Part shown: one piece after another, positions 35,913 to 60,543 of the stretch
Layout of the letters: each line of letters opens with the position of its first letter
How positions within the stretch are numbered: the stretch's first letter is position 1
DNA from: Nodosilinea sp. FACHB-131
GTDB lineage: Bacteria; Cyanobacteriota; Cyanobacteriia; Phormidesmidales; Phormidesmidaceae
Assembly: GCF_014695395.1 (NCBI RefSeq)
Contig: NZ_JACJOF010000027.1
Coordinates: forward strand, 62,001 to 126,000
Direction of reading: 5' to 3'
DNA length: 64,000 bases
Notes under the pieces: generated by a model
Seen by the model: only the letters and a program-made list of their open reading frames with translations
Told to the model about the DNA's origin: nothing
Databases searched by the model: none
Program-made: the position numbers and the translations under genes

Positions 35913-36150
35913 AATGCGTCACTTAAATATGGCGTTTCCTATCTCTGCAACGTCAATACATTGAGTGGATATGGCATGTCCTGCCTTCGCAACCCAATGC
36001 GTCACCTGGATATAGCATGTCCTACCTCTGCAGCGTCAATGCGTCGAGTGGGCATGGTATACCACTGGCTCAAACCGTTAGTGCGCCGGCTGGCTAGGGC
36101 ATATCATTATGTTGCAACGTCAGTACGTGGGCTGACATTGCTAAAGTCAA
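35913..36150 (+). repeat. Degenerate ~41-bp tandem repeat, five to six units
   Basis: Units begin at about 35913, 35955, 35996, 36038, 36078 and 36122, with lengths 42, 41, 42, 40 and 44 bp before a partial last unit. The common pattern is AATGCGTCA, then TGGATATGGCATGTCCT, then CTCTGCAACGTC. Unit 1 and unit 3 are the most alike. The array ends just before the stop of rsmI on the minus strand. Confidence 0.7.
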
Positions 36151-45928: not shown

Positions 45929-46717
45929 GTGAAACAAGCGCTGAAAATTTCCCGCGTCATGCTGTCGGTATACTACGCCTACATGGTGGAATACCGAGCT
46001 GAGCTGGTGTTTTGGGTGCTGTCCGGCACCTTTCCGCTAATTCTCATGGGCCTGTGGGTAGAAGCGGCCCAGGGCAACCAGTTCGACCTCAGTCCGACCG
46101 AGCTGGTGCAATATTTCTTGGCGGTGTTCTTGGTGCGACAGTTCACCGTCGTTTGGGTGATCTGGGAATTTGAGCGGGAGGTAGTGGAAGGGCGGCTGTC
46201 GCCCTATCTGTTGCAGCCGATAGACCCGGCTTGGCGGCACTTTTTTAGCCACGTGTCAGAACGCTTTGCCCGGCTGCCCTTCGCCTTTTTGCTGGTGGGG
46301 CTGTTTTTGCTGCTCTACCCCTATGCCGCCTGGCTGCCCAGTCTGGGCAATCTGCTGCTGGGGCTGCTGGCGATCGCCCTGGCTTTTTGCCTGCGGTTTC
46401 TCATGCAGTACACCTTTGCCCTGGCGGCCTTTTGGACGGAACGGGCTAGTGCCCTGGAGCAGTTTTGGTTTTTGCTCTACACATTCCTATCGGGCATGAT
46501 CGCTCCCCTCTCCCTCTTTCCTGACGCGGTACGAGAGGTGGTGCTATGGACGCCATTTCCTTACTTAATTTATTTTCCGGCCAGTCTGCTGATTAACCGC
46601 CCCAACCATGTAGCGCAAGGGTTTGCGGCGATGGTGCTCTGGTCGGCGCTGTTTTGGGGGCTAAACCGCTGGCTGTGGCGGCGGGGACTGAAGCAATATT
46701 CTGGCATGGGGGCCTAA
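45929..46717 (+). CDS. ABC-2 (DUF990-type) permease, first subunit
   Basis: A 262-aa inner-membrane permease with about six hydrophobic helices. Features of the DUF990/ABC-2 exporter class: ELVQYFLAVFLVRQFTVVWVIWEFEREVVEGRLSPYLLQPIDPAWRHFFSHVSERF and the late FPYLIYFPASLLINRP. The GTG start at 45929 follows AAGTATA without a strong site. It shares one base with the start of the next gene (TAATG), so the pair is co-translated. No ATPase gene is near. Confidence 0.88.
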   Translation: MKQALKISRVMLSVYYAYMVEYRAELVFWVLSGTFPLILMGLWVEAAQGNQFDLSPTELVQYFLAVFLVRQFTVVWVIWEFEREVVEGRLSPYLLQPIDPAWRHFFSHVSERFARLPFAFLLVGLFLLLYPYAAWLPSLGNLLLGLLAIALAFCLRFLMQYTFALAAFWTERASALEQFWFLLYTFLSGMIAPLSLFPDAVREVVLWTPFPYLIYFPASLLINRPNHVAQGFAAMVLWSALFWGLNRWLWRRGLKQYSGMGA

Positions 46718-47499
46718 TGGAGCGCTATTGGAAGGTGCTGCGACTGTTTTGGGGTACGGCGATCGCTGCCGAGCTCGAGTACCGCCTCAACTTTTTGGTC
46801 ACCGCCCTGATTAGTCTGGGCGGGCTGGTGGGCAGCTTGTTTGGCCTGTTTTTGTTCTATCGTACCGGCTACGAGTTTGCCGGCTGGAGCTGGGAAGCCG
46901 CCTTGCTAGTGCTGGGGCTATTTACCGTGCTGCAAGGTTTTGCGGCCACGGTGCTGATTCCCAACCTCAACAAAATCGTCAGCCAGGTGCAGCAGGGCAC
47001 CCTCGACTTTGTGCTGCTGAAGCCGATTAGCTCGCAGTTTTGGCTTTCGACCCGAGTGATCTCGCCCTGGGGCCTGCCCGACGTGCTGTTTGGCCTAGTG
47101 ATGATTGGCTACGGCGGCACACGCCTAGGCCTGGGCTGGGCCGATTACGCCCTGGCGACCTTGCCCCTGCTGTTTGGGGCGCTTACTCTCTACAGCCTGT
47201 GGTTTATGCTGGGGGCCACCAGCATTTGGTTTGTCAAAATCTACAACGTCACCGAGGTGCTGCGGGGGCTGCTAGAGGCGGGACGGTTCCCGATCGCCGC
47301 CTACCCAGTGGCCTACCGAGCATTTTTCACCTTTGTGGTGCCGGTGGCGTTCTTGACGACCGTACCGGCCCAGACCATGCTCAACCAGGGCGGGCGTGGC
47401 TGGCTGCTGGCTTCGGCGCTGCTGGCGACGGTGCTGATGGTGGTGGCGAATCGGTTTTGGCGATTTGCCCTGCGGTTTTACACCAGCGCATCAAGCTAG
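46717..47499 (+). CDS. ABC-2 (DUF990-type) permease, second subunit
   Basis: A 260-aa permease from the ATG at 46717. Helices and motifs parallel the first subunit: MERYWKVLRLFWGTAIAAELEYRLNFLVTALISLGG, then VLIPNLNKIVSQVQQGTLDFVLLKPISSQFWLSTRVIS and ITSTSIWFVKIYNVTEVLRG-like region, FVVPVAFLTTVPA. The two proteins would form a heterodimeric membrane pore; the ATP-binding subunit must be encoded elsewhere. Substrate unknown. Confidence 0.88.
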   Translation: MERYWKVLRLFWGTAIAAELEYRLNFLVTALISLGGLVGSLFGLFLFYRTGYEFAGWSWEAALLVLGLFTVLQGFAATVLIPNLNKIVSQVQQGTLDFVLLKPISSQFWLSTRVISPWGLPDVLFGLVMIGYGGTRLGLGWADYALATLPLLFGALTLYSLWFMLGATSIWFVKIYNVTEVLRGLLEAGRFPIAAYPVAYRAFFTFVVPVAFLTTVPAQTMLNQGGRGWLLASALLATVLMVVANRFWRFALRFYTSASS

Positions 47500-47504
47500 G
47501 TCAG

Positions 47505-48248
47505 CTACAGCCAGCGCCTGATCCAGCCCATGCCTAAAGCTACGGCACCGCCCTGGTCAGCGCTGTGGCGGGCACTTTCAGCAATATATAGGGCTTGTAG
47601 CTGAATGGGTCGATGGTGCGACCGCCCGTTGGCCTGCACCAGCCAGCGTTGGTATTGAGCCAGCTCATCACCCTGAAGCAGTAGATCTGGGTGGCGCTGC
47701 TGTCGCTCCCATGCCAAGGCTCTGACCAAAAGTTGGGTGTGGGCCTGGTGGTAGTCAGCGGCGTGGTGCAGAGTTTGCAAAAGCTGGCGGCCTCCGTCAG
47801 TCTGCGCCAGGGGCACTGACCTGGTCCGCAGGTCGATAGTCTCAAGGGTTTGTAAGGGCTCAGGCAGGTGCTGGGCAGAGACGGTTTCGATCAGCACCGG
47901 CACAATGCGTTTGTTCAGGCTGAGGGCAAACAGCAGCCCCTGTAGACAAAAGACATCGGCCAGGGTGTAAGGCGACAGCACCAGCACATAGTTATCGCAA
48001 GCCTCGGCCGCCCGAGAGATGATCACTTCGGGGTCGGCGTCAGCAGGCCAGGGGTAGGGGCTTTGCCGGTAGCTAATTTGAGCCTGGGCTAGCAGCTGGC
48101 GCAACGCCTCTACCGCCTTGGCCCCACCGGGCCCAGCGATCGCGTCCCCAGGAGCGCGGCAACCATCTTCGACCGCGTAAGCCAAAAATACCTGAGCCGT
48201 TGGGTCAGTGGCAGACTGGCCGTGGCCAGCAACATTTGCGTTGTTCAA
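47505..48248 (-). CDS. TIR-domain protein lacking the usual catalytic Glu
   Basis: A 247-aa protein starting at a TTG with a stop three codons upstream. Residues about 17-140 form a TIR_2 domain: VFLAYAVEDG, AACDNYVLVLSPYTLADVFCLQGLLFALSLNKRIVPVLIE. In bacterial TIR NADases the helix after the Ser-Pro strand carries a Glu in C-x-x-E-L; here it reads C101-L-Q-G104-L, so the Glu is replaced by Gly. A C-terminal segment (ALAWERQQRHPDLLLQGDELAQYQRWLVQ and LQALYIAESARHSAD) matches the linker found before TM/WD40 regions in cyanobacterial TIR proteins, yet the protein ends there. Neighbour: an LRR kinase gene upstream on the same strand. Confidence 0.82.
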   Translation of the reverse strand: MNNANVAGHGQSATDPTAQVFLAYAVEDGCRAPGDAIAGPGGAKAVEALRQLLAQAQISYRQSPYPWPADADPEVIISRAAEACDNYVLVLSPYTLADVFCLQGLLFALSLNKRIVPVLIETVSAQHLPEPLQTLETIDLRTRSVPLAQTDGGRQLLQTLHHAADYHQAHTQLLVRALAWERQQRHPDLLLQGDELAQYQRWLVQANGRSHHRPIQLQALYIAESARHSADQGGAVALGMGWIRRWL

Positions 48249-48489
48249 AAGCTGTACCTATGCTTGCAATGCACTCAAACCCTGTGCCCAGACTGGCCAA
48301 CGAGCCGTGCGTTGCCTGGGGTTGCTGCTCCAACTGCCCGCGCCTTGAGGATACCCATTTTTTTAAATCGGCTTGCTATCGCTGGATACACCTACTCCCT
48401 CAAGCCGCATCCGTTTGCTGACGCAATTAAAGGTAAGGCCAAGGCTGTGACGGCGTCCACCTGTAGGCCAAGCCCTGGCAAGCCCGGCC

Positions 48490-49818
48490 TCAGGGAGCCA
48501 AGGCCACCAGCTCATCCAGCACGTCATCAAAGGCTGGACGAGCCAGCACCTCAGGCCGCATGCAGGCGTGCTGTAGCTGGCGCAGTCGCAGCGCTGGCTT
48601 AGAAGCGGCGGGGCAGCGATCGAGCAAATCCTCCAGCAGGCAGCCAAAGGCCCGTACCTCCAAACGCTCTAGGGCCGGAGCGGCCTGCCCCGCCCGGTCG
48701 TAGAAGCTAGCCGCCCCAAAGTCGCTCAAGCAGGCGTCTCCCGCCGCATTAACCAGGGTGTTGTGAGGATACAGATCGCCGTGAAGAATGCCCCGTCGAT
48801 GCAAATGGGCGGCAGCGGCAGCTACCCCAAGCGCAATGCCCACAGCCGCCTCTAGGGAAAAGGTGGCGTCTATGGGGTAGGTGTCACGGGTGCAGCTCTC
48901 TAGGCTAGGAGGGGCGCCCATTACCCGGTAGCTAGGGTCAACCAGCGGCAGCACCAGCCCAGGTTTCTGCTCGGGATGCGCGACAATTTGGCCCAGGGGA
49001 CCAACCAGGTTCGGGTGTGCCCCCGCCGCCATGCAGGCCCGCATTTCGTCTTCGGGCAGGCCGTCACTGGTAATCGCGCCTTTGAATAGCTTGAGGGCAA
49101 CGGGCATTTCATCCTGACCCTGCCGCCAAGTGCCGCGCGAAATTACACCAGAGGCCCCCTCCCCGAGGATGTCGCCCACCGTCAGATCGTCCCAGGCAAT
49201 TTGAGGTAGCGGTATGGGCTCGCTGCCCCAACCTTGGCAGAAAGGGTTGCCGGCGTAGGCCAGCCAGCTCAGGCGTGGCAGGGCGAGCAGCTGAGGAGGA
49301 AGGACCTCAAGCTGGTTGGCAGCAAGGCGCACTAGCTCCAAATTTTGGCAGTTGGCTAGACTCTCTGGCAGAGCCCGCAGCTGGTTGCCAGCCAGCATCA
49401 GCTTTTGCAGCCTGGTGAGCTGGCCAATGGACTCGGGCAGCGACTCGATGCGGTTATCGGTCAAGATCAGCCAGCGGGTGGCTAGGGGTAACGCCCCAGC
49501 GGGCACGGTGGTGATTTGGTTGGCCTTAAACCCAATCATCGACAGGTTAGGACAGTGGGCCAGCACCTCGGGCAACACCTCAAAGGCGTTGTTGCTAAAG
49601 AAGGCCACCCGCAGGTTGCGCAGCTGAGCAAAGCTGTCGGGCAGGGTGGACAGAGCGTTGTTCGATAGATCCAGGACCTCAAGGCTGTCTGCTAGCTCAA
49701 GAATTTCTTCTGGAAAGGTCGTTAGCCCTGCCGCCAGGTTGAGTCGCCGAGTGCCAGGGCGCAAATGCAGCGGTTCGAAACCGACACTGAGGGGGCGCCG
49801 CATTTCCAGATTGAGCAT
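48490..49818 (-). CDS. Leucine-rich-repeat protein kinase
   Basis: A 442-aa protein from the ATG at 49818 (GAGG 8 nt upstream). Residues about 25-195 hold six to seven LRRs of the LxxLxLxxNxLxxLPxxl type (LEVLDLSNNALSTLPDSFAQL, WLILTDNRIESLPESIGQL, LQKLMLAGNQLRALPESLA). From about residue 210 is a protein kinase: Gly loop LGEGASG (218-224), Lys243 in VALKLFKG, catalytic loop ILHGDLYPHN (HGD in place of HRD, Asp348, Asn353) and DFG at 366-368. All key residues for phosphotransfer are present. Cytoplasmic; the LRR part could recognise a partner or ligand. Fusion known in other bacteria. Confidence 0.88.
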   Translation of the reverse strand: MLNLEMRRPLSVGFEPLHLRPGTRRLNLAAGLTTFPEEILELADSLEVLDLSNNALSTLPDSFAQLRNLRVAFFSNNAFEVLPEVLAHCPNLSMIGFKANQITTVPAGALPLATRWLILTDNRIESLPESIGQLTRLQKLMLAGNQLRALPESLANCQNLELVRLAANQLEVLPPQLLALPRLSWLAYAGNPFCQGWGSEPIPLPQIAWDDLTVGDILGEGASGVISRGTWRQGQDEMPVALKLFKGAITSDGLPEDEMRACMAAGAHPNLVGPLGQIVAHPEQKPGLVLPLVDPSYRVMGAPPSLESCTRDTYPIDATFSLEAAVGIALGVAAAAAHLHRRGILHGDLYPHNTLVNAAGDACLSDFGAASFYDRAGQAAPALERLEVRAFGCLLEDLLDRCPAASKPALRLRQLQHACMRPEVLARPAFDDVLDELVALAP

Positions 49819-49952
49819 GTGTGTAGCCTCGGATCGAGTGTCCACGCCTAATGTGGCATTTCTTCCGAGTTACACGTATGAAAGTTTGGTGTAGTTTATC
49901 GCCAAGCTTGGCGATCAGAAGAACCGGGTTGACCCAATCGTGGGGCAGTGCT

Positions 49953-50609
49953 CTAGCGATCGCGGCTCATTCCCCGCCAGATCAGGTAAACAGCTAACCC
50001 AGCGCCCAGGATCAGCAGACTGCCCAAAACTAAAAACAGTAGGCCCAGCCAACGAGCAGTCGCCTGGTCTTGCTCTAGGGATACCAGGTAGGTCTCTTTG
50101 GTCTCAGCCCCAATCTTGGCTTCAGCGACTACGGGGCGATCGCCAGCGACGCTCAAGGTGCCCAACACCAGAACTGGATCGTTGACCTCAAGGCCTTCAT
50201 AACTGCGATTGCTCCCCTCTTGTACCTGAGAAGAGGTCGATTGCAGGCTGTATCCCGCCTCGATCTCCACCTCTTTTCCCGGAATCTGTACCCAGAGCGT
50301 GGGGTTGTAGCTGCGCTCGTACTCCCATTTCCACTCGTCGTCGCGGCGCACCCGGTGATACTCGTTGTAGGCCACTAGGGGTGGGCGATCGCTAAAGGAG
50401 TTGCGATCGCTCACCTGGCCCTCTAGCAGCACCGGGGCACCCCGTTCATTGAGCGTGGCTGCCGTGGCCACGGGCAGCCGGGCTACCTCCTTAGCATGGT
50501 TGGCAACTGCTTGAGGCACCACAGCCCAAAGCACTCCCCCAGCAATTAAAAAGGGAACGCCCACGGCGGTCAAAACCCCCGGCACCAACCAGCGATCCCA
50601 TTTGCCCAT
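49953..50609 (-). CDS. GIDE/MULAN-like two-TM membrane protein
   Basis: A 218-aa protein with membrane helices near both ends (residues about 12-32 and 185-210). The region between carries LLEGQVSDRNSFSDRPPLVAYNEYHRVRRDDEWKWEYE, then VLVLGTLSVAGDRPVVAEA, the pattern of the GIDE domain (the BAM module of MUL1/MULAN-type E3 ligases). No RING finger is present in this bacterial form. A second, longer member is at 59746. Function in bacteria is not established. Confidence 0.72.
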   Translation of the reverse strand: MGKWDRWLVPGVLTAVGVPFLIAGGVLWAVVPQAVANHAKEVARLPVATAATLNERGAPVLLEGQVSDRNSFSDRPPLVAYNEYHRVRRDDEWKWEYERSYNPTLWVQIPGKEVEIEAGYSLQSTSSQVQEGSNRSYEGLEVNDPVLVLGTLSVAGDRPVVAEAKIGAETKETYLVSLEQDQATARWLGLLFLVLGSLLILGAGLAVYLIWRGMSRDR

Positions 50610-50659: not shown

Positions 50660-51256
50660 TTAGCTTTGCAGAGCTTGGGGCTCAGGCACGTCGTCTAGAG
50701 CCTCCAAAGCCGCTTTTTCTTTATCTAGCCGTCGCTTGCGGGCATAGAGCTGAATCGTAGCCGCCATAAACACCACCAGCCCCACCATTAACCAAGTGGT
50801 CGCCCCCGTGGGGAAGTTGTTCTTAAAGATCACCAGCATGACGATCGCCACCAGCAGCAGAGTGGGAGCTTCGTTGAGCGCCCGCAGCTGTTGCCCCGAC
50901 CACTTGCATTCGCCCCGGTGCAGTTGGCGCATCAGCCGAGCGCAGTAGTGGTGATAGCCCAGCAGCACCGCCACCAGCCCCAGCTTGGCGTGCATCCAGC
51001 CATCTTTGAGGTAGTCAGGCATCTGCACCAGCAACCCAACGGCCATCACCACCGTCACTATCATGCCGGGGTTGGTAATGATGCCGTAGAGGCGCTTTTC
51101 CATCACGGTGTACTGGTTCTTGAGAATGCTGCGCGCCGGCTCTGGCTCAGCCTCCGCCTCAACGTGGTAGATAAACAGGCGCACCAGGTAAAACAACCCG
51201 GCAAACCACACCACCACACCGACAATGTGAAACGCTTTGAACCAGTAGTAGGCCAT
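50660..51256 (-). CDS. hemJ: Protoporphyrinogen IX oxidase, HemJ type
   Basis: A 198-aa integral membrane protein (UPF0093) starting MAYYWFKAFHIVGVVVWFAGLFYLVRLF; conserved His11 and KRLYGIITNPGM and WMHAKLGLVAVLLGYHHYC match HemJ. It oxidises protoporphyrinogen IX in haem and chlorophyll synthesis and binds haem through His. Most cyanobacteria use HemJ. An upstream in-frame start (51271) would add five residues. AcsF, a later step toward chlorophyll, is 7 kb downstream. Confidence 0.95.
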   Translation of the reverse strand: MAYYWFKAFHIVGVVVWFAGLFYLVRLFIYHVEAEAEPEPARSILKNQYTVMEKRLYGIITNPGMIVTVVMAVGLLVQMPDYLKDGWMHAKLGLVAVLLGYHHYCARLMRQLHRGECKWSGQQLRALNEAPTLLLVAIVMLVIFKNNFPTGATTWLMVGLVVFMAATIQLYARKRRLDKEKAALEALDDVPEPQALQS

Positions 51257-51412
51257 AGTTCTTCCTGCCATCCTGCCAAAAGCTCTACCCTGGCGGGATG
51301 TTGCAAACCATTAAGTACGCCTTTCATTGTCCTGCAAGGGTTTGCCCTTGAGAAGGCGAGTGCGATGGTTCTTAACGATTCTGGCTTTTAGACTTTGAAT
51401 TTTAGAGTTTCT

Positions 51413-59422: not shown

Positions 59423-59745
59423 GAGTCCTTCGATGGCGCGGTGAACGTGGGCCGGTCTATCTTCCGGCGGGCGATGCTAGGGGAGGCAGTCCTTGCAACT
59501 CTGGACGCTCGGACTAATTCACATCCTGAGAACAGAGAAGAGAACAACTGTCCAATGAATCGCTAAATGTCAGTGTATCAGGGCTTTTAGGACAGTCGGC
59601 AAGGCTTTAAGTTTTGCAACAAAACCTTTCGGTAAATAACGTCAGCAGAAAAGTCTTTCGTGCAAATTCGTTAAAGGGAGCGGTTTCTGGCGTTGCGTCT
59701 GGGCAAGCTGATAGCCAGAGCTGACAGTCATTGACGGAGAGCAGT
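59423..59745. other. Divergent spacer between acsF and the GIDE-like gene
   Basis: A 323-bp spacer with no gene; it should hold the acsF promoter. I see AT-rich stretches around 59600-59640 and no clear operator or repeat. Confidence 0.4.
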
Positions 59746-60543
59746 ATGGCGATCGCAGGCATTATCTTCATTATCGCTGGGGCCGTGCTCGGGTGGGTGC
59801 AAAAACGCCAGCAGGGCCGCTGTCGCCAGCTCAAACTGGCTCGTGCCTGTCAGGCAACCGACCTAGAGGCCACGGCTACTGCCGTCTCAAAGGAAATTGG
59901 CGGCGGCGACTGGCGCGACTATGTGTGGCTATGGGGCACCGTGAAAACGACCACACCCCTCACCTCGGAATTTAAGGCAGTGCCCTGCGTGTGCTACACC
60001 AGCACCGTAGTGCGCGAGTACGAAGAAACCGTGCGCCAGAAAGACAGTGACGGCAAAGTCACGACCAGCACTCAGCGGGGCTCAGAAACCATCAGCGAGC
60101 ACAGTCAGCGCATTCCCTTCGACCTGGTAGATCCATCGGGGCAGGTGCGAGTGGATCCTGAAGATGCCAAGATCGAGCCAGTGGAGGTGCTGGACGAATT
60201 TCGACCGGGCAACCCTGCCGGAGGCATGCTCTCCTTTGGCCCGTTTTCGCTGGCGCTGGGGGAAGACAGTATCAGTGGCCCTCGCCGCACCCTGGGCTAC
60301 CGCTATCGGGAAACCGTTCTGCCGCTCGATCGCCCTCTGCTAGTGGTAGGCATGGCGAGCGATCGCACCGGCACCATCGCCATTGAAAAACCTGCCCAGG
60401 ATGACCAGCCCTACATCATCACGCTGAAATCCCACGAGGTCATTACTAAGAGCGTTGATCAAAGTGCCAAAATTGCCTTCTGGTCAATGGTGGGGTGCTT
60501 TGGGGTAGGGATAGTGCTGCTATTGGCGGCGATCGTGGGGTGA
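59746..60543 (+). CDS. GIDE-domain membrane protein (MULAN-like), longer paralogue
   Basis: A 265-aa protein from the ATG at 59746 (GGAG 7 nt upstream). A first membrane helix (residues 1-20) and a final one (245-265) flank a GIDE region: VWLWGTVKTTTPLTSEFKAVPCVCYTSTVVREYEETVR, DLVDPSGQVRVDPEDAKIEPVEV, GYRYRETVLPLDRPLLVVGMASD. The eukaryotic counterpart is MUL1, where the domain sits between two membrane helices in front of a RING; here no RING is present. Function in bacteria unknown. Confidence 0.8.
   Translation: MAIAGIIFIIAGAVLGWVQKRQQGRCRQLKLARACQATDLEATATAVSKEIGGGDWRDYVWLWGTVKTTTPLTSEFKAVPCVCYTSTVVREYEETVRQKDSDGKVTTSTQRGSETISEHSQRIPFDLVDPSGQVRVDPEDAKIEPVEVLDEFRPGNPAGGMLSFGPFSLALGEDSISGPRRTLGYRYRETVLPLDRPLLVVGMASDRTGTIAIEKPAQDDQPYIITLKSHEVITKSVDQSAKIAFWSMVGCFGVGIVLLLAAIVG

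Follow-up and report, generated by a model that had tools for sequence, protein, structure and literature searches.

A clade-conserved, stand-alone TIR protein of Nodosilinea predicted to have lost NADase activity and related to the second TIR of multi-TIR arrays

In the 64,000-nucleotide stretch of DNA from Nodosilinea sp. FACHB-131 that we analyzed (the window), a minus-strand gene (47505-48248; 247 aa, TTG start) encodes a stand-alone TIR protein that is probably a pseudo-NADase, acting as a binding-only adaptor, related to the second TIR of multi-TIR arrays and not obligatorily partnered with the LRR-protein kinase encoded next to it. The Pfam TIR_2 domain of this protein carries Gly104, in a C-L-Q-G motif, at the expected catalytic position. 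The kinase gene (48490-49845, minus strand) encodes 451 aa from a GTG; an in-frame ATG at 49818, the end coordinate retained in the preliminary description of this DNA, is an alternative start. Both ORFs and Pfam agreed with that description, which had reported an LRR kinase gene and a TIR gene on the minus strand about 240 bp apart (the gap is 241 bp). A conserved 112-bp leader (48249-48360, minus strand) abuts the TIR start on its upstream side. The two genes belong to a syntenic block that also includes, on the minus strand, the genes for the P218 protein (49953-50609) and for a UPF0093 protein (50660-51271, Pfam) and, on the plus strand, those for two ABC-2 family permeases, one (46654-47499; Pfam, synteny) in convergent orientation to the TIR gene and more constant beside it than any other gene, the other (45929-46717; Pfam) a further member of the block.

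The TIR protein gave a single TIR_2 match (33.3 bits for a Pfam cut-off of 28; residues 45-143), which identifies it as a TIR domain by profile, and no other Pfam domain, so that the several TIRs and the sensor or propeller part of an array are missing. We found the family in 22 of 26 genomes of the genus (the window's own and 25 others). TIR matches with 86-91% identity came from Phormidium tenue FACHB-1052, Nodosilinea sp. WJT8-NPBG4, Leptolyngbya ULC186bin1 and Leptolyngbya FACHB-60; L031, L033 and L034 duplicate contigs of G004, G010 and G019 and were counted once. Cys101 and Gly104 were present in all 22 members (rows L021 and L022 being partial at the N-terminal side), and the Glu of the C-x-x-E helix of NADases was present in none. 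The motif C-L-[QE]-G-L-L was invariant, its third place being Q in 21 members and E in one. The same column was occupied by Glu in all 11 near TIR relatives compared, which come from array proteins, and the helix was aligned without gap in a profile-profile comparison of the family with these relatives (E 2.9e-56). The dead TIR predicted from the reading of C-L-Q-G for C-x-x-E was thus borne out by the invariance of Gly104 in the family and of Glu in its near relatives. The alignment to structures that had been proposed as a check led to the same position: the best solved-structure match of the family was a metazoan TIR-STING fusion (E 3.6e-4), a Glu of which faces Gly104, as does a Glu of SARM1, which we take to be its catalytic E642, in a weak match (E 0.13). 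Two Toll-related chains among the structure matches (E 0.12) had, by eye, no Glu at the position of Gly104. The profile of the array relatives matched Cat1 at E 2.6e-7, with the array Glu aligned to the Cat1 Glu.

The Glu is not the only feature of the relatives that has gone. Their BB-loop carried D in the six rows with a letter at that place and G in seven of seven, and neither residue is kept in the TIR family. Invariant polar residues of the family are E74, R79, E82, D85 and N86, and Gly104 itself sits within one of its most invariant segments, the former active-site helix C-L-Q-G-L-L-F-A-L-S (residues 101-110, codons at 47919-47948 of the minus strand), which is among the best-conserved stretches. 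The AlphaFold model of the TIR protein, built from five close sequences, had a mean pLDDT of 37.9, too low to be used, and the helical tail is a feature of this low-confidence model only. PADLOC gave no family for the TIR protein at E <= 1, the PHROG models gave no match, and no further TIR relative was found in the viral contigs scanned.

A midpoint-rooted tree built from 44 TIR domains placed the 22 of Gly type together on one side of a branch with support of 100/100. This clade grouped at 100/99 with the second TIR of the arrays from G005, G006, G011 and G014; L027 and L099, which each showed just one domain, were assigned as second TIR by hand. G006, G002, G024, G018 and G001 split first within the Gly clade, in an order that was partly weakly supported. 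According to Pfam, the array proteins of G006 (1068 aa) and G011 (1069 aa) consist of three TIR_2 stretches and CHASE2, and that of G027 (1395 aa) of three TIR_2 stretches and WD40 repeats. The preliminary description had the TIR protein stopping where the TM/WD40 region begins in cyanobacterial relatives; this is roughly right, but in five full-length arrays the actual stop corresponds to the start of the third TIR, located by Pfam in three of them and by eye in the other two. The window TIR thus looks like the middle TIR of an array, isolated along with its tail. Ahead of the Gly-type TIR of G002 and G006 stands a first TIR that by eye also has no Glu.

We also observed tandem TIR proteins at L091 (3367-4980) and L078 (1071-2465), with no Glu in either TIR (the first by eye). 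In the arrays L136, L137, L138 and L140, read at full length and with CHASE2 confirmed by Pfam in L136 and L138, TIRs 1 and 2, by eye, carry Glu and the third TIR carries D, D, D and G, respectively. The third TIR of the L139 array keeps E at the catalytic position, also by eye.

Compared with its array relatives, the TIR protein thus has neither the Glu nor the D and G of the BB-loop, and both the sensor part and the partner TIRs are gone. What it has kept, under purifying selection, is the TIR core and some 80 aa of conserved tail. The protein would act as a binding module, an adaptor between TIRs or between a TIR and a ligand, and the CLQGLLFALS helix would be its likely contact surface. 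The scaffold or ligand-binding role first put forward for it is the likeliest one for a conserved TIR that, judged from its sequence, has no catalytic Glu. The loss of this Glu is compatible with ligand binding or another chemistry. Retention of the TIR core and of the invariant polar residues would fit a protein that keeps a ligand pocket, for an NAD derivative or another nucleotide, and serves as a sensor or a sink; we consider this unlikely, as the D and Gly of the BB-loop disappeared along with the Glu and nothing in the data points to any ligand.

In the neighboring kinase, Pfam matched LRR_8 (66.1 bits) and PK_Tyr_Ser-Thr (52.6 bits), the LRRs extending over about residues 40-200 and the kinase domain beginning at about 220. 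The glycine loop, Lys252, Glu267, His355, Asp357, Asn362 and Asp375-Phe-Gly were conserved in every row without a gap there (36 of 37). The statement that all key kinase residues are present therefore holds, with the qualifications that the HRD motif reads HGD or HSD, that the activation segment looks short and that an in-frame stop interrupts the kinase row L102 at query position 157. The Arg of HRD is replaced to give HGD in 34 of 36 kinase rows and HSD in the other two. The activation segment looks very short because the helix-F motif follows DFG after only about 20 residues, an interval that is longer in typical kinases, and the Pfam kinase match ends at 382-386. Rows L044 and L107 have an in-frame stop at position 450, which is the protein end. 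The AlphaFold model of the kinase, from five close sequences, had a mean pLDDT of 47.4, again too low to be used. PADLOC matched the protein via its kinase part only, the best model being mad6 (57.9 bits).

The preliminary description had tentatively linked the two genes in one pathway and had proposed a search for conserved order and spacing as a check. Among 18 main-clade loci (17 genomes, the window included, and the WJT8 record), the kinase gene adjoins the TIR gene in the same orientation in 14, with a spacing of 172-269 bp from alignment end to alignment start. Order and spacing are thus conserved, but so is the entire block: the ABC-2 permease adjoins the TIR gene in 17 of 18 loci, with another gene there in G005, and the contig that carries the TIR gene has UPF0093 upstream in 16 of 18 loci, all except G005 and G022. 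Since the whole neighborhood is conserved, the kinase-TIR pair is not singled out. The remaining four loci comprise G009 and G016, in which the kinase was not found and the TIR gene stays in the same block, and G005 and G022, where contig ends obscure the arrangement. The permease pair occurs in nine further genomes; in eight of them it has other neighbors and no adjoining TIR or kinase match, and in the ninth, G003, it is cut by a contig end, so that the present arrangement seems particular to the main clade.

At the level of the genus, 18 of the 26 genomes have both genes, four the TIR only (G001, G002, G009 and G016), two the kinase only (G003 and G015) and two neither, a co-occurrence that is not significant (Fisher p 0.22). 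Three of the four genomes that have no TIR are just 83-87% complete. The contigs of G003 break inside the kinase and inside the ABC-2 permease, so its TIR was probably lost to a gap in the assembly; scoring this genome as having both would shift the table slightly towards association. Separation of the two genes in most genomes had been named as the observation that would speak against the pair: it was seen in three of the 18 genomes with both genes (G006, G018 and G024, with the genes on different contigs and other ORFs flanking both sides), 13 having them adjacent and two being cut by contig ends.

The two families also differ in their distribution. With up to seven candidates scored per genome, TIR matches at E <= 1e-34 came from 21 of 388 genomes of the class and from one of 159 genera, and the kinase was found at E <= 1e-100 in 69 of the 388 genomes and 24 of the 159 genera (18 genomes within the genus and 51 outside); G024, a TIR family member, is missing from both 388-genome results and may not have been drawn. 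At that TIR threshold of 1e-34 and with the same limit on candidates, the TIR family gave no match in any of the 51 genomes that carry the kinase outside the genus. In a smaller sample in which all candidates were scored, no TIR match outside the genus was better than 3.2e-31. Ten proteins flanking the kinase at eight of ten loci elsewhere were metabolic, transport and regulatory proteins and one unmatched protein, with no TIR among them. The partial rate correlation between TIR and LRR kinase (0.736) was the highest of 15 gene pairs, that of the TIR-ABC1 control being 0.676; these values come from 13 genomes (G023, which has no P218, was dropped) and from pairwise distances that are not independent.

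The leader gives a further view on the TIR gene. In six near relatives it is 93-99% identical, the TIR gene reaching 85-91%, the kinase gene 87-90%, the permease and UPF0093 genes 89-94% and the remaining intergenic region 68-82%. Two relatives at a greater distance have leader identities of 85% (TIR 78%, kinase 80%) and 73% (TIR 68%, kinase 80%). Its core motif was also found in G009 and G016, which have no kinase. This conservation, also without the kinase, suggests, without proving it, that the TIR gene has its own control element. A possible -10 box, TATCCT (TAnnnT), was seen by eye at 48348-48353; a sigma-70 promoter scan of 47300-50050 gave no site, and the same interval contained four terminator-like sites for a shuffled expectation of 2.7. 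No further copy of the leader was found in the window's own genome.

Other natures of the leader were considered. A structured RNA was rejected: there was no Rfam match, the folds were weaker than those of shuffled sequences (z +1.95) and a single pair out of 36 had changes on both sides. Nor did the leader motif indicate a regulon: it gave 14 hits with at most two mismatches for four with the reversed-pattern control, and its sole exact hit was the leader itself. As a coding sequence, another frame is open in the window by eye, and a 1-nt insertion in G020 breaks the frame.

Taken as one pathway, the two proteins would form a bacterial analogue of the TIR adaptor/kinase relay, in which the LRR part of the kinase is the sensor and the dead TIR adaptor, phosphorylated or docked on by the kinase, assembles a downstream complex. 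We find this rather improbable. The spacing of 172-269 bp on the same strand in 14 of the 18 main-clade loci, the kept catalytic residues of the kinase and the top rank of the rate covariation speak for it. Against it stand the adjacency explained by block synteny, the four genomes with the TIR and no kinase match, the three with the genes apart, the non-significant co-occurrence, the kinase carriers outside the genus, none with a TIR-family match among the candidates scored, and the leader conserved where the kinase is missing. The proposed LRR-kinase/TIR-adaptor pathway was thus not upheld, the kinase being also far more widespread than the TIR, and the LRR kinase looks more like a neighbor through clade-wide synteny than a demonstrated or obligatory partner of the TIR. 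That the kinase and a silent TIR adaptor form a receptor-kinase-like cyanobacterial relay, built independently from a dismantled TIR array, is quite improbable; such a relay would be analogous to animal TIR adaptor/kinase signaling and independently assembled.

The joint presence near defense genes that had been named as support for the pair was not seen either, in a Pfam scan that covered 25 of the window's 55 ORFs and a PADLOC scan confined to the two focal proteins. The 25 ORFs encode mainly housekeeping, transport and metabolic proteins, several being unmatched, and the families found include ABC-2 permeases, UPF0093, MscS, VTT, Hsp70, Thy1 and rubrerythrin. P218 resembles, by eye, GIDE-type (PF12483) proteins such as one encoded at 59731-60543, and is present in two side-by-side copies in G008, G011 and WJT8. 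A tandem repeat (period 41, 2.8 copies) occupies 35937-36051.

Regarding other partners of the TIR adaptor, only two further TIR_2 matches (C15 and C37) were found in the window's own genome, so that a TIR-TIR partner is not obvious; one of these two proteins presumably ends in a formylglycine-enzyme-like domain. A WG-repeat gene is divergent from the Gly-type TIR gene at L078, L080, L082 and L091. As a general partner, the WG-repeat protein was rejected, an orthologue being present in 33 of 57 genomes and the copy of the window's own genome lying on another contig. Downstream of the Gly-type TIR gene at L078 and L082 there is a gene for a Ser/Thr kinase.

The TIR gene is under purifying selection, with dN/dS values of 0.09-0.28 with respect to the window sequence (15 comparisons), which argues for a conserved, predicted pseudo-NADase and not for debris. 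The corresponding values were 0.11-0.24 for the LRR kinase (13 comparisons) and 0.01-0.16 for the two permeases. In the kinase-less G009 and G016, the TIR dN/dS was 0.25 and 0.23, compared with 0.24-0.28 in G007, G012, G017 and G025. That the TIR is a decaying, functionless remnant of a TIR array, as the loss of partner TIRs, sensor part and Glu and a dN that is the highest or second-highest among the block genes compared might suggest, is very improbable given these dN/dS values, the absence of in-frame stops within the TIR match in all 22 members, the invariant former active-site helix and a leader better conserved than the TIR gene itself in near relatives.

Bacterial TIRs have been studied mostly as NAD-consuming enzymes. 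If our preferred reading of a binding-only adaptor is correct, TIR enzymes have been converted to binding modules in bacteria too, as happened in animals with the MyD88-type adaptors, and the active array, the Glu-less tandem TIR and the Glu-less single TIR would form a natural series for the study of TIR function without catalysis. Among the matches listed from the literature available to the search, none was recognizable as a description of this TIR family. What appears to be new, judged from that literature, is a bacterial, clade-conserved, stand-alone Glu-less TIR related to an array; Glu-less TIR adaptors were already known in animals.

The kinase resembles the cyanobacterial Ser/Thr kinases surveyed in PMC2176072 in the joining of a kinase to a repeat or sensor domain; unlike them, it has LRRs, which are not among the 14 additional domain types of that survey, neither "leucine-rich" nor "LRR" occurring in its text. 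The TIR family is comparable with the NADases SARM1, through a weak sequence homology, and Cat1 (CRISPR-associated TIR 1), through its array relatives, but differs from both by the Gly found where they have Glu. With the multi-TIR arrays it shares a TIR and tail related to their second TIR, as indicated by the tree and the profile comparison, whereas the arrays keep Glu in this second TIR and combine three TIR_2 stretches with CHASE2 or WD40. Finally, the available part of PMC7075850 gives the catalytic Glu as present in more than 70% of all TIRs and in less than 10% of those of endosomal TLRs, TIRAP and MyD88, so that Glu-less TIRs are a known kind, and adds that Glu frequency and reported activity do not always agree. 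The window TIR is like these adaptor TIRs in the rarity of the Glu and in a presumed role in assembly, and unlike them in having no death domain or receptor part and in its relationship to bacterial arrays.
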